A stretch of 64,000 bases of DNA from Orenia marismortui DSM 5156 (GTDB taxonomy: Bacteria; Bacillota; Halanaerobiia; Halobacteroidales; Halobacteroidaceae). Position 1 is the first letter of the stretch. The number at the start of each line of letters is the position of its first letter. The stretch spans positions 1-64,000 of the forward strand of contig NZ_KB900622.1 of assembly GCF_000379025.1 (NCBI RefSeq), written 5' to 3'. Under the pieces are notes generated by a model that ran no database searches, was not told where the DNA came from, and saw only the letters and a program-made list of their open reading frames with translations. Positions 3,537 through 32,956 of the stretch are shown here, piece by piece. The position numbers were made by a program, and so were the translations under genes.

Positions 3537-3558
3537 TTTAATTCCCTCCTATTTTTTA

Positions 3559-4347
3559 TTAAGATCCTGTAGAACTATAAGCCCCTAAATTCCACAGCCA
3601 AATTCGATAAGCTAAAAGGGAAAACAAAAGAGCAAAAGGTATAATAATAAATGAATACCCAGATTTAAACCCATTAAGTAATGCTTCTACTGGATAAAAA
3701 GAAGCAAAAGCAAAAGGTATAATCCAAGTCAATAATATCCTAAAAAACTTATCGAAAATGTAGATTGGATATCTAGTAAACTCATTTAAATCATGAACCA
3801 ACTCTATTAATGGAAATACCTTCACAAACCTAAAACTAAAAGAAGAAGTAATTAAATTAATTGAAGCATAAAGCAATCCTCCCATTAGAATAAAGATAAC
3901 ATAGATTACTAAAGTAAAGACGGTAAATTCAAAATTTAATTTAGCCACTGCATCTTTAACAATAAATAACCCTACCAACAAATTTCCTATCCCGTCTTCT
4001 TGCCATCGCTCTGCAATTAAATAAAATAGTGGGTTTAGTGGTTTAGTCAATAACCTATCCATCTCTCCATGTTGTACATACCTTTGAGGTAAAAGCCATA
4101 AGTTATCAAAAAAGATATGATTAATTGATTTTGCCAACAGAGCTGTACCATAGATTAATAATATATGCTCATAGCTATAACCCTTAATCTGAGTAACATT
4201 TTTAAATATAACCCAAATCATGGCTAGATTAGCTGCCTGTAAAGATATAGTAGAGATTACTCCGATTAGAAAATCAAATTTATATTGCATTAAGCTCTTA
4301 ATATGGGCTCCTAACATCTTTAAGTAAACCTTTAAATATCGTTTCAT
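3559..4347 (-). CDS. ABC-2 type exporter permease (COG3694-like)
   Basis: A 262-aa integral membrane protein with about six hydrophobic helices. It is the third gene of a permease-permease-ATPase operon read from 6155 down to 3559. The two permeases share the ABC-2/DUF990 layout; this one resembles the COG3694 subunit. It forms half of the membrane channel of an exporter whose substrate is unknown. It starts 3 bp after the other permease stops, so coupled translation is likely. Confidence 0.82.
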   Translation of the reverse strand: MKRYLKVYLKMLGAHIKSLMQYKFDFLIGVISTISLQAANLAMIWVIFKNVTQIKGYSYEHILLIYGTALLAKSINHIFFDNLWLLPQRYVQHGEMDRLLTKPLNPLFYLIAERWQEDGIGNLLVGLFIVKDAVAKLNFEFTVFTLVIYVIFILMGGLLYASINLITSSFSFRFVKVFPLIELVHDLNEFTRYPIYIFDKFFRILLTWIIPFAFASFYPVEALLNGFKSGYSFIIIPFALLFSLLAYRIWLWNLGAYSSTGS

Positions 4348-13967: not shown

Positions 13968-14669
13968 TTAACTATATTCTTTTAGTTTATCTTTATCTAT
14001 AATAACTATCTTCTTATTACCTACTAATTTAATAATACCCTCTTCTTCAAATTTCTTTAGCTTTCTACTGATAGTCTCTCGAGCCACACCAGTGTAATTT
14101 GACATATCTTCTCTAGTAATAGGAACCTTCATCTCAACACCCTTGGCAGTTTCTTGCCCATATTTATCCTCTAAATCTAATAATAAATTTGCTATTCTTA
14201 CTTCTACTTCATTGGTTGCTAAATTCTGAGCCAAGGTCTCTAAATTAGATATTCGCTCTCCTAAAACCTCCATTATCTTCAATCCTATCTCTGGGTACTC
14301 TAAAACAATGCTTTTCATCTTATCTTTGGTTAGAGTACAGAGCTTAGCAGTAGTAATCGCTTCTGCATTAAAGTGATACTCTCCACCCTTTAACAGATTT
14401 AATTCTCCAAAAAAATCACCATCAGATAATATATGGAGTATCTGTTCCTTACCATCTTTTGTATATTTGAAGAGTTTAATTTGACCTTGATTAATTATAT
14501 ATAAAGTATTTCCTTCTAGTCCTTCAAAAAAGATATTATCTCCTTTATCATATTTTTCATGTCCAGTCATAGCAATTATCTCCATTAGCTCTTCTCTAGA
14601 TAAATTTGCAAAGATAGGAACCTTTCTAGCACATAAGCGGTTTTTACAACTTTCGCAACTTCGAGACAT
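13968..14669 (-). CDS. Crp/Fnr family transcriptional regulator
   Basis: A 233-aa regulator with an N-terminal cyclic-nucleotide-binding-like beta barrel (about 20-130) and a C-terminal winged helix (TREDMSNYTGVARETISRKL, about 180-199). The N-terminus has Cys5, Cys8 and Cys13 (CESCKNRLC), an arrangement suited to an Fe-S or thiol sensor. It is upstream of fprA-ric and transcribed in the same direction, but its own terminator separates it from fprA. It probably senses O2, NO or redox state and controls that set. The effector is inferred. Confidence 0.88.
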   Translation of the reverse strand: MSRSCESCKNRLCARKVPIFANLSREELMEIIAMTGHEKYDKGDNIFFEGLEGNTLYIINQGQIKLFKYTKDGKEQILHILSDGDFFGELNLLKGGEYHFNAEAITTAKLCTLTKDKMKSIVLEYPEIGLKIMEVLGERISNLETLAQNLATNEVEVRIANLLLDLEDKYGQETAKGVEMKVPITREDMSNYTGVARETISRKLKKFEEEGIIKLVGNKKIVIIDKDKLKEYS

Positions 14670-14849: not shown

Positions 14850-14886
14850 CATAAAAAAACTAGAAAAGCAAAATGCTTTTCTAGTT
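14850..14886 (-). terminator. Terminator of the YnjBCD-glycosyltransferase operon
   Basis: AACTAGAAAAGCA (14858-14870) pairs with TGCTTTTCTAGTT (14874-14886), followed on the minus strand by seven T. It begins inside the stop codon of the APH-like gene. Confidence 0.88.
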
Positions 14887-15913
14887 ATATAAACTCAGGA
14901 AATATATCCTTCAAAAAATCTTCCTGTAGATACATCTCTATCTTCTTAAAGGTATCCTCATTCTTTAATAAACGACCTGGTTTTTGATATTCAATCCAAG
15001 CCATCGCTGACCAAGAGATTCCTCTCATTGCTGAAAACTTATCAAATATCTTTAACGCTTCTTTAATCTCATCTCTCTTAGCTTCAGCAAAACCACGTTC
15101 TTCACAATAAGCTCTAATAAAGCAATCTCTATCCTCTTTAGACATCCGATAATCTGTCTTCCATAGAGTAGTAGTTGGAACCATAAAATGGCTCAAGTCC
15201 TGTAAGGGAGTAGAAAGAAGAGGTTTCTCCCAATCAACTAAGTAGAAATTATTATGCTTATCATCAATAATAAAATTACCTGAATTGACCTCAGTATTAA
15301 CAATAGATAAAGCTAACAACTCTAAGATACTACTTTCTTGATGACGTAATTGATCTAAACCCTTTAACATTTTCTCTAAAAATAATTTAATTTCAGCTTT
15401 GCCCAAACTAGAGTCAAGATAAGTAGGGATTAACTGCTTACACTCTTCCCAAATTCCTGATAAAGGTTTCTTTTCTATAATCAAATCATGATCTTTAGGA
15501 ATCTCTACATTATGTACTTTAGCCAAAACCTTAGCAGCTTTAACTAAATCTTCTTCATAAATAAGGCTTCTTCCTGGCAGATACTCCATTACTAACATGC
15601 CTAAAGGTAAATCTCTACAACTATCATCCAAAAATAAAGGATTAGGTGTAACTGTAGAACTCTTTAAATTCTCTAAAGCCTGGTACTCATACTTAATCTG
15701 ATTATCTAAATGCATTTGACTTCCGGTATTTAAACGTAAAACATACTTCTTGAACTGATCTTCTAATAAAAAATTGAGATTATACTCCCCCTGAGCTAGA
15801 AAAGAGACTTTAGGATTCCCTGCTAACCCCAGATCTTTTTTGAAATTTTCTTGCTTTATATAGTTCTTCACCTGCTCTAATAGCTCTTTTTTGCTTAGCG
15901 TGTTACTGGACAT
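14885..15913 (-). CDS. Aminoglycoside-phosphotransferase-family (APH) kinase-like protein
   Basis: A 342-aa APH-fold protein: N-lobe with YVLRLNTGS, a catalytic-loop equivalent VNTEVNSGNFIID and a metal loop YLVDWEKP. The usual His-x-Asp of APH is replaced by Asn-x-Glu, so activity on a standard substrate is doubtful, although the DWE metal site remains. Such proteins usually phosphorylate small alcohols such as choline, sugars or amino sugars. It overlaps the end of the TIGR04282 transferase gene by 19 bp and has GGAGG before its ATG. It is the last gene of the importer-glycosyltransferase operon, so it likely acts on the same metabolite. Confidence 0.75.
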   Translation of the reverse strand: MSSNTLSKKELLEQVKNYIKQENFKKDLGLAGNPKVSFLAQGEYNLNFLLEDQFKKYVLRLNTGSQMHLDNQIKYEYQALENLKSSTVTPNPLFLDDSCRDLPLGMLVMEYLPGRSLIYEEDLVKAAKVLAKVHNVEIPKDHDLIIEKKPLSGIWEECKQLIPTYLDSSLGKAEIKLFLEKMLKGLDQLRHQESSILELLALSIVNTEVNSGNFIIDDKHNNFYLVDWEKPLLSTPLQDLSHFMVPTTTLWKTDYRMSKEDRDCFIRAYCEERGFAEAKRDEIKEALKIFDKFSAMRGISWSAMAWIEYQKPGRLLKNEDTFKKIEMYLQEDFLKDIFPEFI

Positions 15914-16623
15914 AAATAAGTTCCTCCTAACTTATTCTCTGATCCAAATAGTTCTTTGGTAAATTTGGCAGTAGCCTTAGGATACAGCTCCCAATTACCC
16001 TCTACTAATAGCCTCTGATATAACTCTAATAACTCTTGATATAGATCAATATCAGCACACTGATCAACTAAGCTATATTGAAGATTACTTTCTTTTTGAA
16101 TCAATTCTATTGTAGCTTCCAATACTTCATCTTTCCCCCACACCAAGTCATCAAAAAGAAATCTTTTTGCTTCTCTAGTTCCCATTAGATAGTATCCTCC
16201 ATCAAAAGAAGGTCCTAATACTATATCATCTTGCAACAATCTATCTATTGCTTTTAAAATATTATTTGGCTGTAAAGCTGGTAGATCACTACCCATGATA
16301 ATTTGACGATCATTACCATCTTCATAAGCATAATTTAAGGCATTATACATCTTCTCACCCAAATCATTCCCCTCTTGAGCAAAAAAATTAAACTCTTTAG
16401 GTATCAAACTCTCCAAAATACTTTCTTTGCCTGAAGGAGTATAAGCTAAATATAACTTAACATCTTGGCGCATCTTGCTAACCTTAGTCAACATCTTAGT
16501 TATATCCTTTAAAAAAGCCTTATGAAGTTCTGCACATTCTTGAGGTGATAAGTGGCTTTGTAATCTAGTTTTAGTCTTTCCAGGAATAGGTATACGGCTC
16601 ATTAGAACAATTCCAACTGACAT
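15895..16623 (-). CDS. TIGR04282-type glycosyl/nucleotidyl transferase (DUF2064)
   Basis: A 242-aa protein starting at MSVGIVLMSRIPIPGKTKTR. GGAGG lies 8 bp before this ATG; an in-frame extension to 16677 is repeat DNA and not used. The N-terminus, IMGSDLPAL and GPSFDGGYYLMG are the hallmarks of the CofC/MobA-like TIGR04282 family, described as radical-SAM/selenodomain-associated transferase 1 and later tied to arsenosugar synthesis. It pairs with the TIGR04283 gene upstream. Substrate unknown. Confidence 0.85.
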   Translation of the reverse strand: MSVGIVLMSRIPIPGKTKTRLQSHLSPQECAELHKAFLKDITKMLTKVSKMRQDVKLYLAYTPSGKESILESLIPKEFNFFAQEGNDLGEKMYNALNYAYEDGNDRQIIMGSDLPALQPNNILKAIDRLLQDDIVLGPSFDGGYYLMGTREAKRFLFDDLVWGKDEVLEATIELIQKESNLQYSLVDQCADIDLYQELLELYQRLLVEGNWELYPKATAKFTKELFGSENKLGGTYLCPVTR

Positions 16624-16648
16624 AATAAACACCTCCAATTTTTTAATG

Positions 16649-16809
16649 ACGAGTAACAAGTGGCCGGTAACGAGCAAAAGTCTAACTATGAGGTTTAGCC
16701 TGTAGCAGTCGAAACTACCTATAAACTACCACAGTTTAAAACCATGTGGCTTAGGGTTAATTTAAAACTCTCTTATGCTTATTAATGATTACTCATCACT
16801 GCATCACCT
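16649..16809. repeat. Heptamer-repeat hairpin between the two transferase genes
   Basis: ACGAGTA-ACAAGTG-GCCGGTA-ACGAGCA (16649-16676) is a run of degenerate 7-mers. The far end (about 16788-16809) carries complementary heptamers (ATTACTC-ATCACTG-CATCACC). The block fills the intergenic gap and would fold as a long imperfect hairpin. Confidence 0.55.
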
Positions 16810-17487
16810 TGCATTTCTATAAATCTGATTCAGTTTAGCTGGACTAACACCTAAGATATAAAGCAACTTGATCTTATGCATTAAAAAGATAGTCTTCCAA
16901 ATTCCGAATTTGTGCCACCTTCTAGCTGAAGTATATATTTTATTAGGCAAATAATCTAGCTTACCTCTTTTAGACATTTTTTTAGAAAACTCCCAGTCCT
17001 CCATCAACTCTATCTCAGGGTAACCACCTAGCTCTGCAAATATTTCTCTTCTAACAAAGATTCCTTGGTCACCAAAGGCTAACTTCAGATACTTAGCTCG
17101 TAAGTTAGAGGTCCAAGAAATAAAACCTAAAACCCAAGAATTATCATCTATCTTCAAAGAAAAATTTCCACCAATTATCTTCTCATCTTTTATAGCATCT
17201 TGAATAGCTAAAATAGCACCTTCTTCTAACCTTGAATCACTATGCAAAAAAAGAATCACATCACCTTCAGCAAGCTCAGCACCTACATTCATTTGGTGAC
17301 CTCTTCCCTTAGTAGTCTGACAGACTTTAGCAGTAAAATTTTGCGCTAGATTATAGGTATTATCTTCACTTCCTCCATCTACAACAATAATCTCTTTATT
17401 ACCTGATAAGCCCTGAACATGCTCTAAAGTTTCAATAATAGTACTCTCTTCATTAAGTACTGGGATAACCACCGATACTAAGCTCAT
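16804..17487 (-). CDS. TIGR04283-type family 2 glycosyltransferase
   Basis: A GT-A glycosyltransferase of 227 aa from the ATG at 17487 (GGAGGGGGAAGG precedes it; the ATG overlaps the ATPase stop as ATGA). It shows SVVIPVLNEESTI, the DXD-like GGSEDNT and LHSDSRL, and the acceptor-side GGYPEIELMEDWEFSKK. This is the pattern of TIGR04283, the partner of TIGR04282 found near radical SAM and selenium or arsenic genes. Together the two may make or transfer an unusual sugar adduct; the product is not known. Confidence 0.85.
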   Translation of the reverse strand: MSLVSVVIPVLNEESTIIETLEHVQGLSGNKEIIVVDGGSEDNTYNLAQNFTAKVCQTTKGRGHQMNVGAELAEGDVILFLHSDSRLEEGAILAIQDAIKDEKIIGGNFSLKIDDNSWVLGFISWTSNLRAKYLKLAFGDQGIFVRREIFAELGGYPEIELMEDWEFSKKMSKRGKLDYLPNKIYTSARRWHKFGIWKTIFLMHKIKLLYILGVSPAKLNQIYRNAR

Positions 17488-18554
17488 CCTTCCCCCTCCA
17501 TAAACCAAATATTTTCTAGAGCAATGATTACTTTAACCTCTTCTCCAACTTCAAAAGATTTTTTAGGTAATTCAGTAACCTCCAAAATATCAGATCCTAT
17601 ATCAACTTGATAATAAATCTTATCGCCAACAAAATGTTCTTCTACTACACTTCCACTAAACTCTAAAGTTTCTTTATTTCCCTCTATTTCCATACTTTCA
17701 AGTTCAATAAATTCAGGTCTAATCATTGCAACTATTGATTTTCCTGACCTTAATTTAAGAGCAAGCTTATCCTTTTCACTAATCAGAGTAGAAACTCCAT
17801 TAAAGATAAAGTTATTACCTTCTAGTTCTACCTTTAAATAATTGGCTTTTCCAAAGAAATCAGAGACAAATCTAGTTTTAGGTTTGGTATATAGCTCTTT
17901 AGCTTTGCCATACTGTTCGATCTTTCCCTGATTCATTACAGCAATCTGATCAGCCATCAGCATAGCTTCATCACGGTCATGAGTTACAAAAATAGTAGTC
18001 ATCTCTTCTTCTAGGTGTAAATTCCGAATAAAGTTCTGCATATCCTCACGTAAGTTAGCATCTAAATTAGAAAAGGGCTCATCTAATAATAATACCTGCG
18101 GGTTAATTGCTAAAGCTCTAGCTAAAGCCACCCGTTGCTTCTGCCCCCCTGATAAATCATTGGGTGAATAATCAGCATAAGCAGTTAAACCTACTAATTC
18201 TAACAATTCACTAACTCTCTGCTTTCGAGTCTTCTTATCAATCCCTCTCATCTTTAAGCCAAAAGCAATATTCTGGCCTACACTCATATGGGGGAATAAT
18301 AGATAATTCTGAAATACTAAGACAGCTCCACGCTCTTTGGTAGGCATATCTAGTACACTCTGATTATCAAAGAATAAATCTCCATTATCTGCCTCTAATA
18401 ATCCTGCAATAATGTTCAAAGTAGTCGTCTTACCACAGCCAGAAGGTCCTAATAAAGCCACTAACTCTCCATCATTAACAGTTAAATTTAATGAATCAAT
18501 CACTGATTTATCTTCAAAACTTTTGCTTAGATTCTGTAGTTCTATCTCTGCCAT
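17484..18554 (-). CDS. ABC importer ATP-binding protein (YnjD-like)
   Basis: A 356-aa importer ATPase: Walker A GPSGCGKTT (about 36-44), Q-loop VFQNYLLFPHM, signature LSGGQKQRVALARAL, Walker B LLLDEPFSNLD, H-loop VTHD. A TOBE-like regulatory domain of about 110 residues follows. It powers the two upstream permeases. Its stop overlaps the next gene's ATG (ATGA), showing that the glycosyltransferase belongs to the same operon. Confidence 0.92.
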   Translation of the reverse strand: MAEIELQNLSKSFEDKSVIDSLNLTVNDGELVALLGPSGCGKTTTLNIIAGLLEADNGDLFFDNQSVLDMPTKERGAVLVFQNYLLFPHMSVGQNIAFGLKMRGIDKKTRKQRVSELLELVGLTAYADYSPNDLSGGQKQRVALARALAINPQVLLLDEPFSNLDANLREDMQNFIRNLHLEEEMTTIFVTHDRDEAMLMADQIAVMNQGKIEQYGKAKELYTKPKTRFVSDFFGKANYLKVELEGNNFIFNGVSTLISEKDKLALKLRSGKSIVAMIRPEFIELESMEIEGNKETLEFSGSVVEEHFVGDKIYYQVDIGSDILEVTELPKKSFEVGEEVKVIIALENIWFMEGEG

Positions 18555-22207: not shown

Positions 22208-22927
22208 TTATGCTTTTTTAACTTCTTCCTCTTCTAATAGATCTCCATTTTTCTTCTTTAACCACTTAGGAATTAAAGAGATAGCAAATAATACTATACC
22301 CGCAATTCCTAAATACATAATAATCTCCATCGGACTTCCTCCAGAACTGATAGCTCCACCAGCAAAGGAGAAGGCTAAACAACCTGGTAACATAAATACA
22401 AAAGTAGCTATGGCATAAGAAACTAAGCTGATACTTGTTAATCCATAAACATAGTTTTGAACATTATATGGGAAGATTGGAACTAAACGGGTTAACATTA
22501 CAAAACGCCACCCTTCAGCTTGTACCCCTTCATCAATCTTATTTAATTTAGGATTCTTCTCCATCATTCCTTTTACCATATCACGAGCCACATATTTACC
22601 AGCTAAGAAAGCACAAACTGCACCAACAGTTGAACCTAAAGCTGTGTATAAAGTACCTAACCATGGTCCAAAGATCAAACCTCCTACTAATCCTAAAGCA
22701 GAACCAGGTAAGAAGAACACAGCAGCTATTACCCATAATAACCCAAATACTATAGGTCCCCATGCTCCTAAACCATTAATAGCCTCTTTTAATAACTTTG
22801 GATCTTTAAAGTATTGCATATATCCTAATTTATTAACTAAAAAGATAACAGCAGCCACTACCAATACAAAAGCTATCACCTTAACTTTACTACCCTTTTT
22901 TTCTTGAACTTGAACTTGCTCACTCAT
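22208..22927 (-). CDS. TVP38/TMEM64 (VTT-domain) membrane protein
   Basis: A 239-aa membrane protein; the start at 22927 is chosen from GGAGG 7 bp upstream. The VTT/DedA-like core includes PGSALGLVGGLIFGPWLG, GAVCAFLAGKYVARD and LTRLVPIFPYNVQNYVYGL. Family members are linked to lipid scrambling or ion handling and are frequent neighbours of pyridine nucleotide-disulfide or FAD oxidoreductases. It is the third gene after the flavoprotein and the CCG protein. Confidence 0.85.
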   Translation of the reverse strand: MSEQVQVQEKKGSKVKVIAFVLVVAAVIFLVNKLGYMQYFKDPKLLKEAINGLGAWGPIVFGLLWVIAAVFFLPGSALGLVGGLIFGPWLGTLYTALGSTVGAVCAFLAGKYVARDMVKGMMEKNPKLNKIDEGVQAEGWRFVMLTRLVPIFPYNVQNYVYGLTSISLVSYAIATFVFMLPGCLAFSFAGGAISSGGSPMEIIMYLGIAGIVLFAISLIPKWLKKKNGDLLEEEEVKKA

Positions 22928-22951
22928 TATAAAGCCTCCTTTTAATTTCAA

Positions 22952-23010
22952 TAAGTAGTGAGTAGTGAATAGTAAAAAGATTAATATCTTACTGCTCACT
23001 CCTTACTATT
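22952..23010. repeat. TGAGTAG heptamer hairpin overlapping a gene 3' end
   Basis: TAAGTAG-TGAGTAG-TGAATAG (22952-22972) and the complementary TTACTGC-TCACTCC-TTACTAT (22989-23009) form a hairpin between the CCG gene and the TVP38 gene. The CCG stop codon at 23009 lies in the right arm. Confidence 0.6.
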
Positions 23011-23776
23011 ATTTTAATACCTTCTTAATATTTCTCTTAGACTTATATCTATTTACCCACCCAGTTAAAGGACTAGAAGGGTTATCTGGGAATTCAGATT
23101 TAGAGTTCCATGGACCACCAAAGATTAAATCTAAGATGTGAACAGCCTTCTTGCCACCTTTAACCATAGATTCACGACAAGCTGCACAATAAGTGACCAT
23201 ATAATCTGATTCTACTTCTGATGTTCTCTTATTCATTACTCTTTGAGCAAGCTCTGGATTAGCTGGAACTACCATCCCACCAAATCCACAACACATTGTA
23301 GTCTCTCTAGTATGTGGTGGTTCTTCTGAATTATAACCTAGCTCCTTAATAATCCAGCGAATTCCATCATGGATATCCTTTCGATCTCTTGTTGAACAAG
23401 AGTCATGAATAGCAAAAGTAATATCACTATCTTTACCGATACCTACTGATTCTTCTGGCAATCCAATCTCTGGTAATAGTGACCATAAAGAAGTTACCTT
23501 CTGTGGACTATTTGCAGACATAGTTAAATAACAGGATTGGCAAGCTACAATAATCTCTTCTGCCCCTAATTTATCTATCTCAGCTTGAAATCCAGCATAT
23601 CTCTCCTTAAATTTATCAACTTGACCCAAAGCCTTTGTAGGTTTACCACAACATTTTAAAATTGCCCCTGTTCCAGGTAACTTCTCTTGTAAAAACTCTA
23701 AAGTCTTCTTTACAGCATCAGGGTTATAAGATGGTAAACTACAACCTGGTATAAATACTCGTTTAGTTTTTGACAT
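23009..23776 (-). CDS. CCG-domain Fe-S protein (HdrB-like)
   Basis: A 255-aa cytosolic protein with two cysteine-rich CCG motifs, LKCCGKPT (about 41-48) and TMCCGFGGMV...YCAACRES (about 160-205). This is the heterodisulfide reductase subunit B pattern that binds a noncubane 4Fe-4S cluster and handles disulfides or persulfides. It is 14 bp downstream of the GltD-like flavoprotein, with which it could form a disulfide or sulfur redox complex (inference). Confidence 0.85.
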   Translation of the reverse strand: MSKTKRVFIPGCSLPSYNPDAVKKTLEFLQEKLPGTGAILKCCGKPTKALGQVDKFKERYAGFQAEIDKLGAEEIIVACQSCYLTMSANSPQKVTSLWSLLPEIGLPEESVGIGKDSDITFAIHDSCSTRDRKDIHDGIRWIIKELGYNSEEPPHTRETTMCCGFGGMVVPANPELAQRVMNKRTSEVESDYMVTYCAACRESMVKGGKKAVHILDLIFGGPWNSKSEFPDNPSSPLTGWVNRYKSKRNIKKVLK

Positions 23777-23790
23777 ATTAAAACCTCCCC

Positions 23791-25602
23791 TTATTTTTTA
23801 TCCTTAGCAGGCTTAGCTGTATTAAATAGTTTTGAGAATCCTAAGAATTGATGCATCTCTATAGCTCCATGTCCCTTAATTGGAGATTTACCATTATTAT
23901 TCTTAACCATCTCTTTTCTCATCTTCATAAACTTATCCTTAATTTTAAAATCATTAGGACATACAATTGTACATTGGCTACACATATTACAAGAATAAGG
24001 AATTAAAGGATCTATATCTCCAGTTTTCATTACCTCAGCAAATAAATCTTTTGGTGAATGACAGAAGTCATTTAACATTACACATTCTCCCATACACAAT
24101 CTACATTCACATTGTAAACATCTTTCAGCCTCTTTTTCTGCTAATTCTTGACTTAAAGCAAACTCAACCTCATCAAAGGATTTAATCCTTTCTTTAGGAT
24201 CTAATTCTTGACCATGTACTCTTTCTGGCTTAGGCAAGTTATCCCAATCTAGAGGTATATCTAACTTAGTAGTATATGAGCCTTCTTCTTGAGCAACTCT
24301 GCCTTCCTTTAAATCTTTAGCATTTAAATATCTATCTGCTGATTTAGCAGCTCTTCTACCTTCAGCCATAGCTCCAACTACTATAAAAGCTGTTCCACTT
24401 GCATCTCCTGCTACAAATACATTCTCAGCACTAGCTGATTGCATAGTTAATGGATCACATTCAAAGGTTCCATTTCTTCTTTTAGTCAATACATCTTCGT
24501 TATCAAAGCTTGAATCTACACCTTGCCCAATAGCAAATATAACTGTATCTACATCTAAAGCCTTTTTATTATTCTCATTAAATTCAGGTGCAAAGTTACC
24601 ATCCTTATCAAACATAGTTGTACATTCTTTAAGCTCTAAACCTGATACTCTTCCATCTTTATCTATATTAATTTTATGAGTTCCATAAGCTAAATTAAAG
24701 TTTACTCCTTCATTAAGAGCACCATTAATTTCATGCATTGAAGATGCCATCTCATCATATGTAGACTCTAAACATACAGCATGAACCTCTTCAACTCCAG
24801 CTAATCTAAGTGATGATCTAGCACAATCCATGGCAACATCTCCACCACCGATAACTGCTACCTTCTTTCCTACCCCATCAAAGGCTTGAGTTAATGAAAT
24901 TTCTTTTAAATATTCAGCAGCATGGTAAATTCCATCGGCATCATGATTTTCAAGACTTCTATCAATTCTACCTTGATGCTTACCTACTGCTACAATTACT
25001 GCATCATAGTCTTCTCTTAACTGATTAAAGTCAATATCTTTTCCAATCTCTACTCCCATCTTAAACTCTACGCCAATCTTTTCAAGTAGAGAATATTCAC
25101 TATCTATAATATCTCTTGGAAGTCTATACTCTGGGATACCAACTCTCATCATTCCTCCATAGACCTCTAGACGATCATATACTGTAACAGAATATCCTTC
25201 TCTTCTTAAATCTAAAGCAGCTTGAGCTCCTGCAGGTCCTGCTCCAATAACTGCAATCTTCTTATCATTATCTTCAGCAACATCCAAATCCCAATTATTA
25301 GGATCATCAAAGTTATCAGCAGCATACCTCTTTAAACTTGCTACTGCCAAAGGACTATTCACCTCATTTCTCTTGCAATTTTCTTCACAAGGGTGAGCAC
25401 AAATTCTTCCTAAAGTCTTAGGTAAGAACAACTTCTCTCTAATAACCTCAACTGCTTCTTTACCCTTTCCTTCCCCTATTAGATTGACATATTTCTTGAC
25501 ATTAGTATGCATTGGGCAACTGGCTACACAAGCCGGATCGGCATCACCCATACAATCATCTACTATTTCATTTAATGGCTTTAATACTTTTTCTGATAAC
25601 AA
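23791..25602 (-). CDS. GltD-like FAD/NAD(P) oxidoreductase with ferredoxin domains
   Basis: A flavoprotein of 603 aa from TTG at 25602. GGAGGAG lies 6 bp before this codon, and the inferred transcription start (about 25681) makes the longer reading to 25725 impossible. Order: N-terminal Cys-rich Fe-S domain (CVASCPMHTNVKKYV, CAHPCEENC), FAD Rossmann fold GAGPAGAQAALDLRREG, NAD(P) fold VIGGGDVAMDC, then C-terminal cysteine clusters including CNMCSQCTIVCP. It feeds NAD(P)H electrons to the CCG protein or ferredoxin. It heads the operon with CCG and TVP38. Confidence 0.88.
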   Translation of the reverse strand: MLSEKVLKPLNEIVDDCMGDADPACVASCPMHTNVKKYVNLIGEGKGKEAVEVIREKLFLPKTLGRICAHPCEENCKRNEVNSPLAVASLKRYAADNFDDPNNWDLDVAEDNDKKIAVIGAGPAGAQAALDLRREGYSVTVYDRLEVYGGMMRVGIPEYRLPRDIIDSEYSLLEKIGVEFKMGVEIGKDIDFNQLREDYDAVIVAVGKHQGRIDRSLENHDADGIYHAAEYLKEISLTQAFDGVGKKVAVIGGGDVAMDCARSSLRLAGVEEVHAVCLESTYDEMASSMHEINGALNEGVNFNLAYGTHKINIDKDGRVSGLELKECTTMFDKDGNFAPEFNENNKKALDVDTVIFAIGQGVDSSFDNEDVLTKRRNGTFECDPLTMQSASAENVFVAGDASGTAFIVVGAMAEGRRAAKSADRYLNAKDLKEGRVAQEEGSYTTKLDIPLDWDNLPKPERVHGQELDPKERIKSFDEVEFALSQELAEKEAERCLQCECRLCMGECVMLNDFCHSPKDLFAEVMKTGDIDPLIPYSCNMCSQCTIVCPNDFKIKDKFMKMRKEMVKNNNGKSPIKGHGAIEMHQFLGFSKLFNTAKPAKDKK

Positions 25603-25687
25603 GGGAAACTCCTCCTTCCAATTCATATAAGATATATTTTTCACAAGCACTCCCTTAAAAACAGACTTTATTCCTATTGTCAATATT

Positions 25688-25716
25688 ATTATATCCACTA
25701 AACTAACATTTGTCTT
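25688..25716 (-). promoter_or_regulatory. Promoter of the flavoprotein operon
   Basis: Minus strand: -35 AAGACA (25711-25716), 17-bp spacer, -10 TATAAT (25688-25693). The weak -35 suits an activated promoter. It resembles the double-rhodanese gene promoter at 32692-32720. Confidence 0.6.
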
Positions 25717-25745
25717 TAGAGCCACAAGCTAATTATATACTCTTT

Positions 25746-25766
25746 TTTTGTACTCAATCTACAAAA
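25746..25766. promoter_or_regulatory. Operator dyad shared with the rhodanese lipoprotein gene
   Basis: TTTTGTA-CTCAATC-TACAAAA is a perfect 7-bp-arm dyad. It ends 29 bp upstream of the -35 box, exactly as at 32750-32769. An activator site is inferred. Confidence 0.65.
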
Positions 25767-26027
25767 GACAAGTCATTTTAATTAAAAAAAGCTACTATCG
25801 ATTAAGATATTAATATTTCTTTGTAGCAAAACACCAATTTCATCTTATTTTATATTCCCATATTAAATTGATAATACTTTTTATAGTAAAGCTACATTAT
25901 AGCAACAAAGAATAACTAGTAGCAGATAATAAATTAGATTATCTATATTTCTTAGTAATACCTAAAATATTCTTGTAACTATCTTAATTAAAAATTTTCT
26001 GTAATCAATATTCTACTAACAAATCAA

Positions 26028-26053
26028 AAAGCACAGCTAATAGCTGTACTTTG
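26028..26053 (-). terminator. Terminator of the tusA-yeeE operon
   Basis: ACAGCTA and TAGCTGT form the core stem, flanked by AAAG and CTTT, followed on the minus strand by TTTTTGATTTG. It lies about 215 bp past the YeeE stop. Confidence 0.65.
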
Positions 26054-26149
26054 AAATATTGTTTAACTTTAATATATCTTTAAATGGTGATTTAGCTTTA
26101 AAAAGAAATTTAAATATACTACTATAAATATTATAAAACTTTACTAACT

Positions 26150-26200
26150 AGTCACAAGTAACAAACTTAACTTGTCACCTATTACTCCTCACTCGTTAAT
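26150..26200. repeat. AGTCACA/AGTAACA heptamer hairpin
   Basis: AGTCACA-AGTAACA is followed by complementary ACTTGTC-ACCTATT-ACTCCTC-ACTCGTT. It is similar in style to the blocks at 16649, 22952 and 53444. Confidence 0.5.
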
Positions 26201-26268
26201 ATCTCTTTATATCAACTCAATTTTTTAAACTTAAATATCTATAGACTAATTCTACTAATTAATACTCT

Positions 26269-26823
26269 CTAAGTAAACCATTTCATTAGGACCTTACTTC
26301 CTAAAAAGACGCCTAACATGACAAAAGGGAGATATAACCAACCATTTAGCCCTAATGAAGATATTGAACTATATAAACCTCCAATATTACATCCTACCGC
26401 TACTCTAGCCCCATACCCCATTAACCAACCACCTATTAGTACAATTAGAACTTGTTTCTTATTCTTAACCCTCTTAAATTTAAATTGCTTTGCCAACAAT
26501 ATAGCTATTAAAGCACCAAAAACTATACCAAGATTAGACCAAGTCTGCTTGTCTAGCCATGGTCTAGCATAATAATCATAATAAGTCCAAACATCCCATT
26601 CATTAGTTGCTATTCCAAAATTACTTAACACCCAAGAACCCCAACGGGCTAAGTTAGTTGTAATCGCCCAATAATCACCTGTTAATGCTACATAAATTAT
26701 ATTTAATAATGCCAGTAAGACTCCACCTACCCAATAGGGCCATGGCTGTTTAAATATCTTTTTAAATAAACTCTCTTTATCATCTTTACTTTGTTTTGGT
26801 AACAGTGATTTGCCATTCACCAA
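26269..26823 (-). CDS. YeeE/YedE half-protein (thiosulfate/sulfur-compound transporter, TsuA-like), first half
   Basis: A 184-aa membrane protein with the YeeE/YedE repeat, including the conserved GARVAVGCNIGGLYSSISSL region (the Cys-containing loop that passes sulfur species). Typical TsuA-type transporters have about 350-400 residues and two such halves; here each half is a separate gene. The start codon is TTG at 26823 or GTG at 26820, overlapping the end of tusA by 38 bp. Together with TusA it likely imports thiosulfate or another sulfur or selenium compound. Confidence 0.8.
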   Translation of the reverse strand: MVNGKSLLPKQSKDDKESLFKKIFKQPWPYWVGGVLLALLNIIYVALTGDYWAITTNLARWGSWVLSNFGIATNEWDVWTYYDYYARPWLDKQTWSNLGIVFGALIAILLAKQFKFKRVKNKKQVLIVLIGGWLMGYGARVAVGCNIGGLYSSISSLGLNGWLYLPFVMLGVFLGSKVLMKWFT

Positions 26824-27007
26824 AGGTCACCTCTTCTATCTCCACATTATAACCACGTTTTCTAGCCCATTCTGGCACATTAGTCATTGCACAAGTATGA
26901 TCAACCTCAATATATAGCTTCTCGCCTATCTTTAATTTTTTTATCTTCTTCTCTGCTTTCATTAATGGTAACGGACATGGTTCTCCGATACAGTCTAATC
27001 TATTCAT
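26786..27007 (-). CDS. TusA/SirA-family sulfur carrier
   Basis: A 73-aa TusA-like protein. Start at 27007 is set by GGAGAGGGAGTT before ATG. The catalytic CPxP motif is in IGEPCPLPLMKAEK. TusA proteins accept sulfane sulfur on this Cys. Genes of this kind next to YeeE/YedE transporters are the TsuB partners of thiosulfate uptake proteins. Its 3' end overlaps the yeeE half gene. Confidence 0.88.
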   Translation of the reverse strand: MNRLDCIGEPCPLPLMKAEKKIKKLKIGEKLYIEVDHTCAMTNVPEWARKRGYNVEIEEVTFGEWQITVTKTK

Positions 27008-27083
27008 AACTCCCTCTCCTTTTTCATTAAAATGAATCAAATTTATGTTTTTCCCACAAATAGGCTAATAAATATAGAGCTTC

Positions 27084-28281
27084 ATTGTAAAATCAAATTG
27101 AACAAAATAAAAATAGCCATAGGGCACCAAACTGTAATATAATTAAATCACCACAAAATAACCAGTTACAGGAGGGTGCACACTATGACTTACTTAAATG
27201 ATACACCAAAATCCCGAAAAAATAAACACCTAAATGCTTATGAACGTGGTCAAATTGCATTATTACATTCCGAAGGAATGAATCCAAATGCTATTGCAAA
27301 ACGTTTAGGTAGAGCTTCTAATACCATTAGAAACGAACTAAAACGTGGTACAGTTTCTCAAATTAAAGCTAATAAAAAGATTATGGTCTATTACCCTGAC
27401 ACTGGTCAAAGAGTTTATGAATCTAATCGCAAGAATTGTGGTCCTAAATTTAAACTTTTGCAATGTGAAGAGTTCATTGATTATGTTATAGAACAGTTCT
27501 ACGAAAAAGGACATTCTCTTGATGCTATATGTGGTGCAGCAAAACTTCATAATAAATTTCCAAAGCCAGAGATGGTATCTACTAAAACGCTTTATAACTA
27601 CGTCAACGCTGGATTATTGACAATTAAAAACATTGATTTACCTTTGAAGCTTAAGCGTTCTTCAAAAAGAAAGCACACTAAAAATAATAAAAAGAAGCTT
27701 GGTACAAGTATAGATCAACGCCCTGAAAGTATTAATAATCGTAGTGAGTTTGGTCACTGGGAAATTGACACTATGATAGGCAAAAAGACTAAAAATGAAT
27801 CAGTTTTACTTACTATGACAGAACGTATGACTCGTAAAGAAATTATTCGTAAAATCCCTGCCAAGACTGCTCAAGCAGTTCAAGATGCTATTTTAAAGCT
27901 CGTTAATGAAGCAGGAGATTGTTTTCCAAAAGTATTTAAAAGCTTCACTTGTGATAATGGCTCTGAGTTTGCTCAAATGTCATTTTTAGAGCAAATTAGT
28001 GATACTAAAGTATACTTTGCACATCCATATTCATCATGGGAAAGAGGAACTAATGAGCGTCATAATGGTCTTATAAGACGCTTTATCCCTAAAGGTAATA
28101 GTCTAAACCAATTCTCTATTGAATCTATTGCTAGAGTCCAAAACTGGTGCAATACTTTACCAAGAAAAATCTTAGATTACCTAACCCCTGATGAAATATT
28201 TGAAGATAAATTAAAACAAATTCTTTATGACTAAATAACCAAATTATTACAGTTTGAAAATGTTCAATTTATTATTGCAAT
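27084..28281 (+). mobile_element. IS30-family insertion sequence, intact copy
   Basis: About 1.2 kb bounded by imperfect inverted repeats: left ATTGTAAAATCAAATTGAAC, right (reversed) ATTGCAATAATAAATTGAAC. It encodes one intact transposase. It has no obvious target duplication. It is inserted into the 3' end of the second yeeE half gene, on the opposite strand to the operon. A diverged copy lies at 60846-62058. Confidence 0.85.
27185..28234 (+). CDS. IS30-family transposase
   Basis: A transposase of about 349 aa from the ATG at 27185 (GGAGGG 8 bp before). It has an N-terminal helix-turn-helix (LNAYERGQIALLHSEGM...IAKRLGRASNTIRNELKRG) and a DDE integrase core with GHWEIDTMIG (first Asp), FTCDNGSEF (second Asp) and SSWERGTNERHNGLIRRF (Glu). 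All catalytic residues are present, so the element may be active. Base use is a little less AT-rich in its start region than neighbours. Confidence 0.93.
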   Translation: MTYLNDTPKSRKNKHLNAYERGQIALLHSEGMNPNAIAKRLGRASNTIRNELKRGTVSQIKANKKIMVYYPDTGQRVYESNRKNCGPKFKLLQCEEFIDYVIEQFYEKGHSLDAICGAAKLHNKFPKPEMVSTKTLYNYVNAGLLTIKNIDLPLKLKRSSKRKHTKNNKKKLGTSIDQRPESINNRSEFGHWEIDTMIGKKTKNESVLLTMTERMTRKEIIRKIPAKTAQAVQDAILKLVNEAGDCFPKVFKSFTCDNGSEFAQMSFLEQISDTKVYFAHPYSSWERGTNERHNGLIRRFIPKGNSLNQFSIESIARVQNWCNTLPRKILDYLTPDEIFEDKLKQILYD

Positions 28282-28901
28282 TTAAGTAATAAATATAGAA
28301 TAACTAACATAGATACTTGCAACAAAATACTGGGTCCCCAACCTATCAAAGTAGGTAAGTGAGGTACCTCATAATCACTAAATAATCTATACCACCAATC
28401 AGCATCATGAGCTCCATGTACTGAACCTAAAAGAAATCCGATTAAAGCTACCCATTGCAACTGAAACCCTTCCCCTAATCTAACTAAAGTTCCAGAAGCA
28501 CAACCACCACTAATAGCAGCACCAACCCCAAAGATTAAAGCTCCAATTGGAATGTGCCAACCTAAGGCTACAAATCTTCCTGAAAGACTTAGACCATTTA
28601 CCATTTGATAATATTGAATTATACTATATCCTATTGTCGCTATTAATAATGATAATATAACTGCTCTTGCTAATTCAGTTAAGCCAAAAAAGATTGGATC
28701 TCTCAAGGTTGCAGTAAAACATATCTTAGCACGTTGCAAAGTAAATCCAACTAATAGACCAAAGACCCAAGAAATAGCTAGATTAAAAGCTAATGAATTA
28801 TATAAGTAATAAAAAATTAATGATGAGATAAATAAGAGCACAATAGCCAATTTGATCTGCCATTTAGGATCTTTTCTTCTGGAAACTCCCCTCTTTTCCA
28901 T
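28272..28901 (-). CDS. YeeE/YedE half-protein, second half, 3' end replaced by the IS
   Basis: A 209-aa membrane protein from ATG 28901 (GGAGG 8 bp before). It carries the other YeeE/YedE half (GFTLQRAKICFTATLRD and GAAISGGCASGTLVRLGEG with conserved Cys). The last codons and the stop come from the IS terminal repeat. Joining the flanks across the IS gives an in-frame ending of ...LLKKLYIY and a stop at 27065-27067, so the original operon ran regulator, yeeE second half, tusA, yeeE first half. Only about 8 terminal residues changed, so the protein may still work. Confidence 0.82.
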   Translation of the reverse strand: MEKRGVSRRKDPKWQIKLAIVLLFISSLIFYYLYNSLAFNLAISWVFGLLVGFTLQRAKICFTATLRDPIFFGLTELARAVILSLLIATIGYSIIQYYQMVNGLSLSGRFVALGWHIPIGALIFGVGAAISGGCASGTLVRLGEGFQLQWVALIGFLLGSVHGAHDADWWYRLFSDYEVPHLPTLIGWGPSILLQVSMLVILYLLLKLQ

Positions 28902-28905
28902 TATA

Positions 28906-30185
28906 TTAGCCTCCTTCTTCACAACTACAGATAATAAATTTATGAATCTTATAAGCAGTAGTCAAATTTAATTGTGTTTCAAAATCACGTAAATCAAGCC
29001 CTAAAATTTCTTGTATTCTCTCAATTCTATACCTCATAGTATTTGGGTGAATATGTAGTCGATTGGCAGCATATTGAATACTACATCCCTCTTGCAAAAA
29101 AGCCCCTAAAGTATCTACCCAGTTACTATTATTATTTAAATCATAAGCAATGAGCTCTTTCAAGAATTCATCGGTAAACTTCATTAAATGACGACAATCC
29201 ACCTGCCATAATAAACGTAAAACTCCCAAATCTTCATAAAATAATACCCTATTAACTTCATTTGTTATAGCAAGGAATTCTAAGCTATATAATGCCTGCT
29301 GATAGCTATCTGCTATCATACAACAATCTCTAACAAAAGAACCCCCTCCAATTGAGAAAGATACCCCTTGAAAACGATTACTTAGTTGCTGATGAAGGCT
29401 TTCTATGTCCTCTCTAATCTCTTTAGAGTTATCCTCATAATTAATTAATAGTAAAATATCTCCTTGGTACGAAAATATAATATACTTCCTTGAAATATTT
29501 GTTCTAATAATTCGATGTAAGCTATTAATAATCTTCTCTTCCATCTCGTAGGTATATAATCCATGACCACCTGTATCTTTATCTAAATCACGACTAAAAT
29601 TAGCTTTAATTACAAATAGTTGATAAGAAACTGTCAAATCCCAACCTGCTAATTCACCACTTTTAATTAACTTTTGTCTATCTTTAACTCTACCTTGTAG
29701 TAGATTTTCAATTAATTCATTACTACATCGTTGTGACAAGCTCTGTATAATATAATTTTGATGTAACTTTAAAGAGATAGCATTAACCCCTTGAGTCAGA
29801 GCCAAATAATCATCTTCATCTAAAATATTTTCCTCTAAAATAACAAGATAACCCAATAACTCATCTTGTCCTCCTAACCTAGCTTGAATCTCTGTATACT
29901 CTTTATTCTTCCAAGAATAATATGCTCTCTCTACATGGAAACCATTATCTGTATAAACTACTTCTTTTTTTCTAATTTCTTATAATCTAAATAATCATAA
30001 AAGTCCATATCTTGGCGCAATTTCCTATCTATATAAAGTAAATTCTCACGATATTTATCTAAGATAAATACAAAATTATTGATATCCTCTGTTAAAACAC
30101 CACATAAAGTCCTCAAGCCACCATCCTCAAGAAGTATCTCATTGTATTTATTTTGTAAAGACAATAACCTGTTATTATCTTTCAT
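28906..30185 (-). CDS. PucR-family transcriptional regulator, requires -1 frameshift at 29964-29970
   Basis: Two frames together encode a regulator of about 426 aa. Frame 1 (30185 to the TAG at 29958) gives a 75-aa N-terminus like PucR sensor regions. Frame 2 continues from the same point by a -1 shift (…LEKK-EVVYTDNGFHVERAYY…) into the rest, with no good start of its own. It ends in the PucR C-terminal HTH (AANRLHIHPNTMRYRIERI). The junction is A AAA AAG, the dnaX-type slippery heptamer (GAA AAA AAG AAG TAG). Programmed frameshifting, phase variation, or a single-base loss are all possible. It precedes the yeeE-tusA genes and may control them. Confidence 0.78.
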
Positions 30186-30290
30186 CAGTTAACTTCTCCC
30201 CTATATATTTATATTTTTAGCCCTAGCTCAACTCAATCAATTCCATTTCATCATTAAAGTCTAAATGTTTTTATAGTAATATAATAGATA

Positions 30291-30393
30291 GATGAAGTGA
30301 CATTTTCGGAGTTAGGCGTTAGGAAATGGGAGGTAGGAAGACCTTACTATCCCCTATGACCTATCACCTAGCACCTAAAAATGTCTCTTTATC
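30291..30393. repeat. MITE-like interspersed repeat, copy A
   Basis: About 103 bp bounded by inverted ends GATGAAGTGACATTTT and (reversed) GATAAAGAGACATTTT. The inside has runs of GTTAGG/GGTAGG and complementary CCTAGCACCTA, so the whole unit folds into a hairpin. Very similar copies lie at 33627 and 37901. Confidence 0.75.
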
Positions 30394-30487
30394 CCCATAA
30401 TCCCTTATTAGCCCACTTAAGATTCAACTATCACAAATTTTCCCCTGAATTAATTACAGAAACTTCAAAATAAATCCATACAGATTT

Positions 30488-31369
30488 TTAAAAATTAAGC
30501 CAAGCTGCAAAGATAGCATCTTTAAATTTCTTAATATCCTTTATTCCTGTAGGAATATTAATTACCCCTTCATTTCTTATATCTCGTGACTTATCAGAAA
30601 TATCAACAATTAACGTTCCTGTCTTCAAATCATCTAATTTAGAATTTAAAGTATAATATTGATTCTCAAATAATTCAGGGCTAGTAACATACACAGCAGA
30701 TACTAAATCCCACATGTAAAAACCTTTAGTATTAATTAACTCTTCTCCATAATCATACCAATCCTTAATATAATCACTGATATATTTATAATTATCATTT
30801 TGCTTATTAGATAAAGTTTTCCATTCTTCACTTCCAAAAAATGCTTCTAAACATAAATTTCCACTAGCTACCATAACAGGTACATCAGCTTTTAATACCA
30901 ATTCAGTAGCCTCCCCATCACAAGAAAAGTTCAATTCAGATACTTCTTTATCTCCAAAGTATAATGGCTCAGTAATACCTCCCATAACTACTATCTGTTT
31001 AAGATATGTAAAGAATTGATCATCTTTTTTATAGGCTGCTTTCAAATTAGTTAAAGGACCTGTAGCTAATAAAGTTATCTCTCCTGGATTCTCTTTAGCT
31101 GTTTTAACTAAAAAGTCAGCAGCAGCTGTATCTATATCATTGGCATTAGCAGCTCCTGAATGTAAATTAAAATCTGTAATATCTAATTCTTCAATCATCT
31201 GCTTTGTTACCTGATTGGCTTGAGCTAGAGTTCCATTACCAAAGGTACTGCTAACTCCTAATAGCTCAACATCCTCTCTACCCAATAAATAAAGTAGAGT
31301 TAATCCATCATCAACATCCTTTTTTGGTAATCCCATTGTATTATCACAATCAAATAAAACTTTCTCCAT
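30488..31369 (-). CDS. Inosine/uridine-type nucleoside hydrolase
   Basis: A 293-aa hydrolase from ATG 31369 (GGAGAG 6 bp before). The metal motif is FDCDNTMGLPKKDVDDG, the variant spacing of a Firmicutes subgroup (standard DxDxxxDD is split). LLATGPLTNL and VVMGGI are the conserved core. It splits ribonucleosides into base and ribose. It stands alone between MITE copy A and the lipoprotein gene. Confidence 0.85.
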   Translation of the reverse strand: MEKVLFDCDNTMGLPKKDVDDGLTLLYLLGREDVELLGVSSTFGNGTLAQANQVTKQMIEELDITDFNLHSGAANANDIDTAAADFLVKTAKENPGEITLLATGPLTNLKAAYKKDDQFFTYLKQIVVMGGITEPLYFGDKEVSELNFSCDGEATELVLKADVPVMVASGNLCLEAFFGSEEWKTLSNKQNDNYKYISDYIKDWYDYGEELINTKGFYMWDLVSAVYVTSPELFENQYYTLNSKLDDLKTGTLIVDISDKSRDIRNEGVINIPTGIKDIKKFKDAIFAAWLNF

Positions 31370-31594
31370 ATTTATCTCTCCTCTATAATAAGTATAACAG
31401 CAACTTTTTTTATAGATAAATCTATTAAATTTCATTAATACTATATCATTATTATACGATATAGTACAGTTCTTTTAAAGTTTTATAAAATTTTACCTTT
31501 TTGCCCTGATAAATCATTTATAATCTAAAAGTAGAATAGCAAAAAATTAAGTATTAAGTAATTATTTTATTAAAAGATATTTAAACAAAATTAA

Positions 31595-31618
31595 AGGAAG
31601 GAGGAAATCCCCCTTCCT
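31595..31618 (-). terminator. Hairpin downstream of the rhodanese lipoprotein gene
   Basis: AGGAAGGAGG and CCCCCTTCCT pair around AAAT (one mismatch), about 36 bp past the stop. The minus strand continues with TTTAATTTTGTTT. Confidence 0.6.
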
Positions 31619-31654
31619 GACTATAAATTATATTGTTATATATTATATAAGTAA

Positions 31655-32623
31655 TTATTCACCTTTCTCAATCGGTAAATCTTTTCTTGCACTCCACTCA
31701 ATCCAAGAACCATCATAGTTCTTAACATCTTCATATCCTAATAATTGAGTTAATACAAAAGTAGTATGTGCTGATCTAACAGCTGATTGGCAATAAGGAA
31801 TAATTGTCTTATCTTCAGTTATTCCCTTAGCTTCATATACTGCTTTTAATTCTTCAGCAGTCTTGAAAGTACGAGGCCCTTCAGACTTACCACCATTAAT
31901 AGCCTCTTTCCATTCAATCCATGGAGCAGTTGGAATTCTTCCGCCTCTAGAAGCCATATTCTTCTCACCTGTATACTCAGCTCTAGAACGAGTATCTAAG
32001 ATTTGTAAATCACTATCATTAATAGCCTTTTGAACATAATCAACAGTCGCTAACCACTTATCTTCATTAACCTTAGCTCTGTTAAATTTAAAGTTACCTT
32101 TTTCAACATCTGGTGTTGATATCTGAGTATCATAATCTAATGCCTTCCAACGAACAATTCCTCCATCTAATAATCTAACCTTATCATAGCCATATGTCTT
32201 TAAAATCCACCACATTCTAGCAGCATCATAATCTCCACGATCATCATAAATAACGATTAAATCTCCATTGTTAATACCTTTAGTCTGTAACATTTTTTCC
32301 ATCTGATCTACAGTAGCTCTAATACCACCATATTCAGCATTAGGGTTTTCTTCATCACTACGATAAACATTAACTGCTCCTGGAATATGTCCTAACTTAT
32401 ACTTAGCCACATGTCTAAAATCAACCATAACTAGATCATCTTTATCCTTAATTTTCTTTAATTCTTCTGCACTAATTAATGCTTTTGGATTAGCATAACC
32501 TCTTTCTTTAATCGGTACATAATTTTCATCAGTTATAGCCTCTTTTGTTGAACATCCTACTACTAACATTAGTCCTGAAACAAGTATTGCTAAAGTTATT
32601 ATTGCCAAAAATCTCTTCTTCAT
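31655..32623 (-). CDS. Exported double-rhodanese sulfurtransferase lipoprotein
   Basis: A 322-aa thiosulfate/3-mercaptopyruvate-type sulfurtransferase. It starts with a signal peptide ending in lipobox VVGC (Cys about residue 24), so it is anchored outside the membrane. The first rhodanese domain has YDDRGDYDA where the active Cys would be (inactive, usual for domain 1). The second has the loop PYCQSAVRSAH with the catalytic Cys. Its promoter shares an operator with the flavoprotein operon. It could feed sulfane sulfur to the YeeE/TusA uptake system (inference). Confidence 0.88.
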   Translation of the reverse strand: MKKRFLAIITLAILVSGLMLVVGCSTKEAITDENYVPIKERGYANPKALISAEELKKIKDKDDLVMVDFRHVAKYKLGHIPGAVNVYRSDEENPNAEYGGIRATVDQMEKMLQTKGINNGDLIVIYDDRGDYDAARMWWILKTYGYDKVRLLDGGIVRWKALDYDTQISTPDVEKGNFKFNRAKVNEDKWLATVDYVQKAINDSDLQILDTRSRAEYTGEKNMASRGGRIPTAPWIEWKEAINGGKSEGPRTFKTAEELKAVYEAKGITEDKTIIPYCQSAVRSAHTTFVLTQLLGYEDVKNYDGSWIEWSARKDLPIEKGE

Positions 32624-32691
32624 TAAATTTCGCCTCCCATGTTAACTTTGAATTTTTTTTCACAAAAGATAATTTAAATCTTCATACTATA

Positions 32692-32720
32692 ATCATATCT
32701 ATTTTAATTACGTTTGTCAT
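32692..32720 (-). promoter_or_regulatory. Promoter of the rhodanese lipoprotein gene
   Basis: Minus strand: -35 ATGACA (32715-32720), 17-bp spacer, -10 TATGAT (32692-32697). The spacer and flanks look like the flavoprotein promoter. Confidence 0.6.
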
Positions 32721-32749
32721 TGGTAGCAGGAACTAATTAAAAGCTAATC

Positions 32750-32769
32750 TTTTGTAGTTTGAGTACAAA
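32750..32769. promoter_or_regulatory. Operator dyad, second copy
   Basis: TTTTGTA-GTTTGAG-TACAAA is the inverse orientation of the dyad at 25746-25766 (central seven differ in one base when aligned). It ends 29 bp upstream of the -35 box. The gap 32624-32956 holds no gene. Confidence 0.65.
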
Positions 32770-32956
32770 GCGATCTTAGGCTACTATTAAAATGACTCTT
32801 TTTTGATAATAGCCTTTATCCAATCTTAATCTATATAGGGTAATATAAAATCAAAGTATCATTTCAAATATTGAATAATTAATCTGGAAATATGATCCTT
32901 CTATAAGCTTTATTTTATCAGCATATATATTAACAAAAGTTGATAGGAGGCAGATT

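Follow-up and report, generated by a model that had tools for sequence, protein, structure and literature searches.

The window analysed here is a 64,000-nucleotide (nt) stretch of contig NZ_KB900622.1 of the halophilic anaerobe Orenia marismortui DSM 5156, and positions given without another label are those of this window. It contains two promoters with a common operator module, one preceding the gene for a GltD-like FAD/NAD(P) flavoprotein (23791–25602) and the other preceding the gene for an exported tandem rhodanese (31655–32623). For both promoters and both target genes, the sense strand is the minus strand. The flavoprotein gene is assigned by homology to the start codon TTG 25602, behind AAGGAGG, as in relatives. 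The GltD promoter is therefore entirely intergenic, and the longer open reading frame (ORF) that begins at 25725 is a mechanical artefact. As read from its sequence, the rhodanese has the lipobox LVVGC and a cysteine loop (CQSAVR) in its second domain only. Between the two promoters lies a gene for a candidate PucR-type regulator with a GGDEF-like domain and an HTH_30 domain (28906–30185, minus strand). This gene is outside both operator-driven units, as a terminator-like hairpin (31618–31595) follows the rhodanese.

Each promoter consists of two inverted repeats followed by −35 and −10 hexamers, all on the minus strand. At the GltD promoter, box 1 is the repeat TTTTGTA-N7-TACAAAA at 25746–25766, with a core TTGT-N9-ACAA that is conserved in 23 promoters. 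Alignment of promoters also reveals box 2, TTAG-N9-CTAA at 25716–25732, whose final base is shared with the −35 hexamer AAGACA (25711–25716), and the −10 hexamer is TATAAT (25688–25693). The rhodanese promoter has CTTTGTA-N7-TACAAAA as box 1 (32750–32770), TTAGTTCCTGCTACCAA (TTAG-N9-CCAA) as box 2 (32720–32736), ATGACA as −35 (32715–32720) and TATGAT as −10 (32692–32697). The six-base arms of both dyads are perfect. The sequence-only reading of this DNA had placed the end of each dyad 29 base pairs (bp) before a weak −35 that is followed by 17 bp and the −10, and these distances are exact at both promoters. It had also claimed that the central seven bases agree except one. Six of the seven do match if one site is reversed relative to its gene, but on the sense strands the cores read GATTGAG and CTCAAAC. 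The core match was rejected as a signal because it requires this reversal and because, in relatives, the two promoters do not have a conserved core in common.

The exact dyad TTTGTA-N7-TACAAA has only two sites in the 3.46 Mb genome, and these are the two promoters. From base composition, about 2.0 pairs of such arms are expected in the genome, so the arms alone prove nothing and their rarity was discarded as evidence. When the arms are combined with AWGACA at this exact spacing, 0.02 occurrences are expected in the whole genome and two are found. The dyads are not scattered at random spacings, the outcome that the sequence-only reading had named as fatal to itself: a gap allowed to range from 25 to 35 bp still gives only these two places. 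A near-match dyad at 30055–30075 was rejected, as it falls within the stretch of the PucR-type gene that encodes the N-terminus.

The module was further traced in a comparison set of 61 whole genomes (G numbers below). It is present in 23 promoters from 12 Halanaerobiales genomes in six genera, where it precedes rhodanese, flavoprotein, TVP38/DedA or ABC transporter genes. A strict composite pattern finds seven places in five genomes, every one with the same gene cluster, and has zero control matches. A looser pattern finds 17 places, spread over 12 genomes, and a single control match, adding the TVP38/DedA gene alone (G032, G035 and G046), the ABC operon (G032) and one stray match (G025). A profile built from 21 promoters, with the window's genome left out, was also searched over the whole set. 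In the window's genome, the two window promoters rank first with 46.8 and 40.3 bits, and the next among the matches listed has 16.3 bits. Over the 61 genomes, 23 matches score at least 34 bits, all of them known member promoters, and the next scores 22.4 bits. This last match, in G045, was set aside as a stray, since it is single, stands beside a ribonuclease-Y-like gene and is supported by no neighbour.

It is thus near certain that the two promoters belong to a common regulon. This claim of the sequence-only reading is strongly supported by the same spacing before the same genes in these genomes, with nothing comparable elsewhere in the profile search. Judging from the fall in profile scores, from at least 34 to 22.4 bits, the regulon is small and confined to the cluster genes and one PAS-domain protein in G012. 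The opposite explanation is that AT-rich sequence yields many dyads and promoter-like hexamers, from which two were picked by chance. The arms do occur at unrelated places in relatives, as well as being expected about twice per genome, and promoter-like matches in the region are barely more frequent than in shuffled sequence. However, the recurrence of fixed spacing and targets in 12 genomes, together with an independent profile in which the two sites lead by more than 20 bits, refutes this explanation and leaves it practically no probability. The G012 promoter (L145, 1501–1577 and 1853–2287) has the full module before the gene for the PAS-domain-like protein, at a contig end and next to an IS30-type ORF.

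The second repeat was seen when the 23 promoters were aligned on their −35 hexamers, and it played no part in choosing the sequences. Relative to the first −35 base, TTAG occupies −16 to −13 and [AC][TC]AA occupies −3 to 0, with a gap of nine as in box 1. The T at −16 is present in all 23 promoters and the T at −15 in 22. In an exhaustive scan of these promoters for inverted repeats, box 1 (gap 9) comes out on top, followed among the separate places by box 2 (nested repeats with gaps of 11 and 9). The centres of TTGT-N9-ACAA and TTAG-N9-CTAA are about 40 bp and 8 bp upstream of the first −35 base, and hence 32 bp, or about three helical turns, apart. When rhodanese and GltD promoters are compared within eight genomes, the arms of the two boxes are 83% and 73% identical and the −35 is 88% identical, while the dyad cores (33% and 51%) and spacers (46% and 38%) differ. 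This is the pattern expected for selected binding sites. Such a pair of inverted repeats a short way upstream of the −35 is also what is found at GabR-like promoters. The T-N11-A box of LysR-type regulators does not describe box 1 in these promoters, as TTGT-N9-ACAA has G and C at the N11 spacing.

A further conserved element lies in the transcripts. The sequence TTGTGAAAA, or a close form of it, occurs 22–35 nt before the Shine-Dalgarno sequence in 17 of 18 rhodanese and GltD transcripts, with a fuller form TTGTGAAAA-N5-WTC. In the window it is represented by CTTGTGAAAAATATATC upstream of the ribosome-binding site of the GltD transcript (25631–25647, minus strand) and by TTTTGTGAAAAAAAATTCAAAG in the rhodanese transcript (32646–32667, minus strand), both conserved in relatives. 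It is also found in the DedA transcripts of G032, G035 and G046, at 39–49 nt. The interval between the element and the −10, in contrast, ranges from 5 to 78 nt. This suggests a role at the RNA level, because the element is tied to the ribosome-binding site and not to the promoter. No Rfam family matches the leader in the window. Leaders in which TCACAAAG-like sequence is followed by a GATGCCC...GGGCATTTTT-like hairpin that looks like an attenuator occur in G032 and G051, where they precede the ABC operon, and also in G033 (L089, ~7580–7660; L092, ~1230–1330; L276, ~3500–3680).

The leader element, box 2 at the −35 and the PucR-type gene with its frameshift all go beyond the sequence-only reading, which had named no regulator. 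The HTH_30 domain (PF13556) scores 81.9 bits in the window fragment and 74–81 bits in four orthologues, against a cut-off of 27, and the GGDEF-like domain (PF17853) scores 37.7–56.7 bits in the fragment and orthologues, against a cut-off of 24.5. The PucR N-terminal domain (PF07905) has no match at E up to 1 in the four orthologues. The protein is therefore classed only as an HTH_30/GGDEF_2 regulator and not as a member of the strict PucR family. In a search of the PDB, its sole relatives are the helix-turn-helix part of MabR (Rv2242) and 3onq; weak matches to haemagglutinin were judged spurious. Orthologues of the PucR-type protein, GltD and the rhodanese occur together in one set of 11 out of the 61 genomes, and the PucR-type gene is found in 10 of the 12 genomes that carry the module.

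The nearest known arrangement is that of GabR, the local PucR-type activator of the gabTDP promoter of Corynebacterium glutamicum, which requires two inverted repeats of 21 bp, located within −87 to −23, and binds far more strongly when both are present (PMC7652997). Inverted-repeat operators of 21, 17 and 24 bp are given for GabR and for PutR and AdeR of Bacillus subtilis (PMC7652997). The system here resembles GabR in its type of regulator, its local regulon, its pair of inverted repeats just upstream of the −35 and, as predicted, in activation. It differs in that its targets are sulfur genes, its arms are TTGT/ACAA and TTAG/CTAA, its centres are 32 bp apart and its candidate regulator has a GGDEF-like domain, which GabR does not. 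Because of its co-occurrence with the targets, its placement in a separate unit and this GabR-like geometry, the PucR-type protein is the best candidate for the shared activator, and a somewhat better than even case can be made for it.

Several observations weigh against this assignment. The PucR-type gene of the window has a −1 frameshift at AAAAAAAG, an A7G run within 29958–29979. In G012 and G033 a TAA stop cuts the gene short, in G005 a transposase interrupts it, G046 has only a truncated copy and G035 has none, yet all six genomes with a damaged or missing gene keep the operator. In addition, G014 has the PucR-type gene and the cluster without the module, its matching pair of arms standing at a different distance, and the module is also missing from the promoters of the rhodanese genes in G029 and G033. 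The arms of box 1 and box 2 are also not identical to one another. Either the losses of the gene are recent and the operators have not yet decayed, or another protein reads the operators. For the window, a mutation or an assembly error is the likelier cause of the frameshift; programmed frameshifting at A-AAA-AAG was considered and is unsupported, as intact orthologues read through in one frame.

If another protein reads the operators, the regulon and module would be the same, the activator would be encoded elsewhere and the PucR-type gene would be a mere neighbour in the cluster. This alternative is possible but rather unlikely. It would account for the broken, truncated or missing gene in six of the 12 module genomes, including that of the window, where the six-base arms are nonetheless perfect. 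A protein of the CRP/FNR type would be one such activator, as the −35 region of several promoters reads TTGTGA-N6-WGACAA, like a pair of half-sites near −40, and several such proteins are encoded in each of the 61 genomes, one of them in the window (13968–14669). However, a class II CRP/FNR site, resembling TTGTGA-N6-TCACAA near −41.5, is not found in all promoters: TTGTG-N6-AWGACAA with TATAAT appears in only a few, while column counts over the aligned promoters favour TTAG-N9-CTAA, which fits most of them. The CRP/FNR (HcpR-like) reading of this region was therefore rejected as the weaker one. None of the CRP/FNR genes was seen to follow the distribution of the operator, although with several in every genome their presence or absence is uninformative. 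The module also occurs just twice in the whole genome of the window and only at cluster genes, which is typical of a local regulator. The CRP/FNR-type gene of the window (minus strand) adjoins genes for ODP/flavodoxin (flavo-diiron-type) and ScdA/hemerythrin-type proteins, which possibly form a response set for nitric oxide or oxygen.

The PucR-type protein could instead be a repressor, the loss of which makes the operons constitutive; this would explain why the gene is repeatedly lost while the targets are kept. Box 2 overlaps the −35, as the operator of a repressor might, and the targets are intact where the gene is lost. This version is improbable. A box placed upstream at an invariant distance (about 75 bp from the start) and the conserved weak −35 fit activation, and the PucR-type GabR is an activator (PMC7652997). 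Operators should also decay once a repressor is lost, and those of the window are intact. From the promoter architecture, the shared regulator is therefore likely to act as an activator. The sequence-only reading had proposed one activator on the basis of the fixed spacing. That spacing, the weak conserved AWGACA and the two-site geometry are all consistent with activation; a single regulator is plausible, and the PucR-type protein is a candidate for it.

The boxes, their spacing and conservation, the target set and the co-occurrence of the PucR-type gene would be best explained as follows. The two promoters would form one small, dedicated sulfur regulon, probably for thiosulfate, with a common activated-promoter module. 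A regulator dimer would bind each of the two N9 inverted repeats (TTGT-N9-ACAA and TTAG-N9-CTAA), and about three helical turns between their centres would place both on one face of the DNA. Assuming that transcription starts about 7 nt after the −10, the repeats would be centred near −75 and −43, with a predicted footprint from about −85 to −36. The bound protein would hold RNA polymerase at the weak −35, whose sequence (AWGACA) would be fixed because it overlaps the second repeat. The likeliest such protein is the product of the PucR-type gene between the operons, which would work as a local activator in the presence of its sulfur ligand. In the window's strain, the switch may be inoperative or only partly operative because the regulator gene is frameshifted there. 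Thiosulfate or a product of it is likely to be the signal, by analogy with Halanaerobium, in which three rhodaneses and AsrA rise with thiosulfate according to one report (PMC5497025). The full scheme, in which a sulfur-responsive activator of the PucR/CdaR type bridges two repeats three helical turns apart and the leader element (TTGTGAAAA) adds a second control at the RNA level, is put forward tentatively, with the chances tilted somewhat against all of its parts being correct together.

In relatives, these genes lie in a single cluster that comprises the rhodanese, a nucleoside hydrolase, the PucR-type regulator, two YedE-like halves flanking a TusA-like gene, the GltD-like flavoprotein, a CCG/HdrB-like protein, a TVP38/DedA protein and a YnjBCD-like ABC transporter. 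In the window, all on the minus strand, the flavoprotein is followed by its CCG-domain (HdrB-like) partner (23009–23776), which is fused to it in G003, G005 and G014, and by the TVP38/DedA-type membrane protein (22208–22999), the relatives of which carry the operator on their own in G032, G035 and G046. Homology identifies, also on the minus strand, the first half of a YedE/TsuA-like sulfur transporter (28272–28922), a TusA/TsuB(YeeD)-like sulfur carrier (26786–27040) and the second half of the transporter (26269–26823). The 3′ end of the first half abuts an IS30-family element (27084–28281) with 21-nt imperfect terminal repeats, which overlaps this end and lies between the first half and the TusA-like gene. 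The ABC transporter matches NF008633 with 505 bits. After the ABC genes come two glycosyltransferases of 'arsenosugar biosynthesis' families (TIGR04283 and TIGR04282, both above cut-off) and a kinase-like gene (14885–17508, minus strand), in an order that resembles that of Halanaerobium. The only transfer RNA call (22683–22782, minus strand) falls within the coding sequence of the TVP38/DedA gene and is probably a false positive.

The YeeE/YedE-like transporter and TusA/YeeD-like carrier are reminiscent of the TsuA/TsuB (YeeE/YeeD) thiosulfate uptake system and of YedE/YedF. Unlike in those systems, the transporter here is split into two proteins, and the YedE/TusA-like proteins fall far short of the NCBIfam cut-offs, whether for the thiosulfate or for the selenium families, so the scores do not decide between sulfur and selenium. 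The ydjXYZ-ynjABCDEF neighbourhood of Escherichia coli also has a TVP38-type membrane protein, a YnjBCD-like ABC transporter and a rhodanese side by side, as in the cluster here. It differs in its arrangement and is not known to have a flavoprotein/HdrB pair or a PucR-type gene.

The accessible part of the Halanaerobium report concerns the same order of bacteria and describes no regulator or operator (PMC5497025). SoxR and sHdrR are ArsR-type sulfane-sulfur repressors that control thiosulfate genes (PMC12423496); unlike the protein proposed here, they are repressors of another family and act in sulfur oxidation. A literature search found no paper linking Halanaerobiales with PucR and no described regulator of these genes.

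Halanaerobium species are reported to cause the souring of gas wells, in which they convert thiosulfate to sulfide via rhodaneses (PMC5497025). The operator is now defined, the targets are few and there is a candidate for the regulator, which makes the control of these genes directly testable. One regulon or cluster holds a rhodanese, a split YeeE/TusA system, a GltD/HdrB pair, a TVP38 protein and an ABC transporter, which is evidence that these proteins work in one pathway. The link also suggests what an uncharacterised PucR-type clade may do, and, if true, it would make this PucR/CdaR-type protein the first in its family to be connected with the use of thiosulfate within the literature searched.

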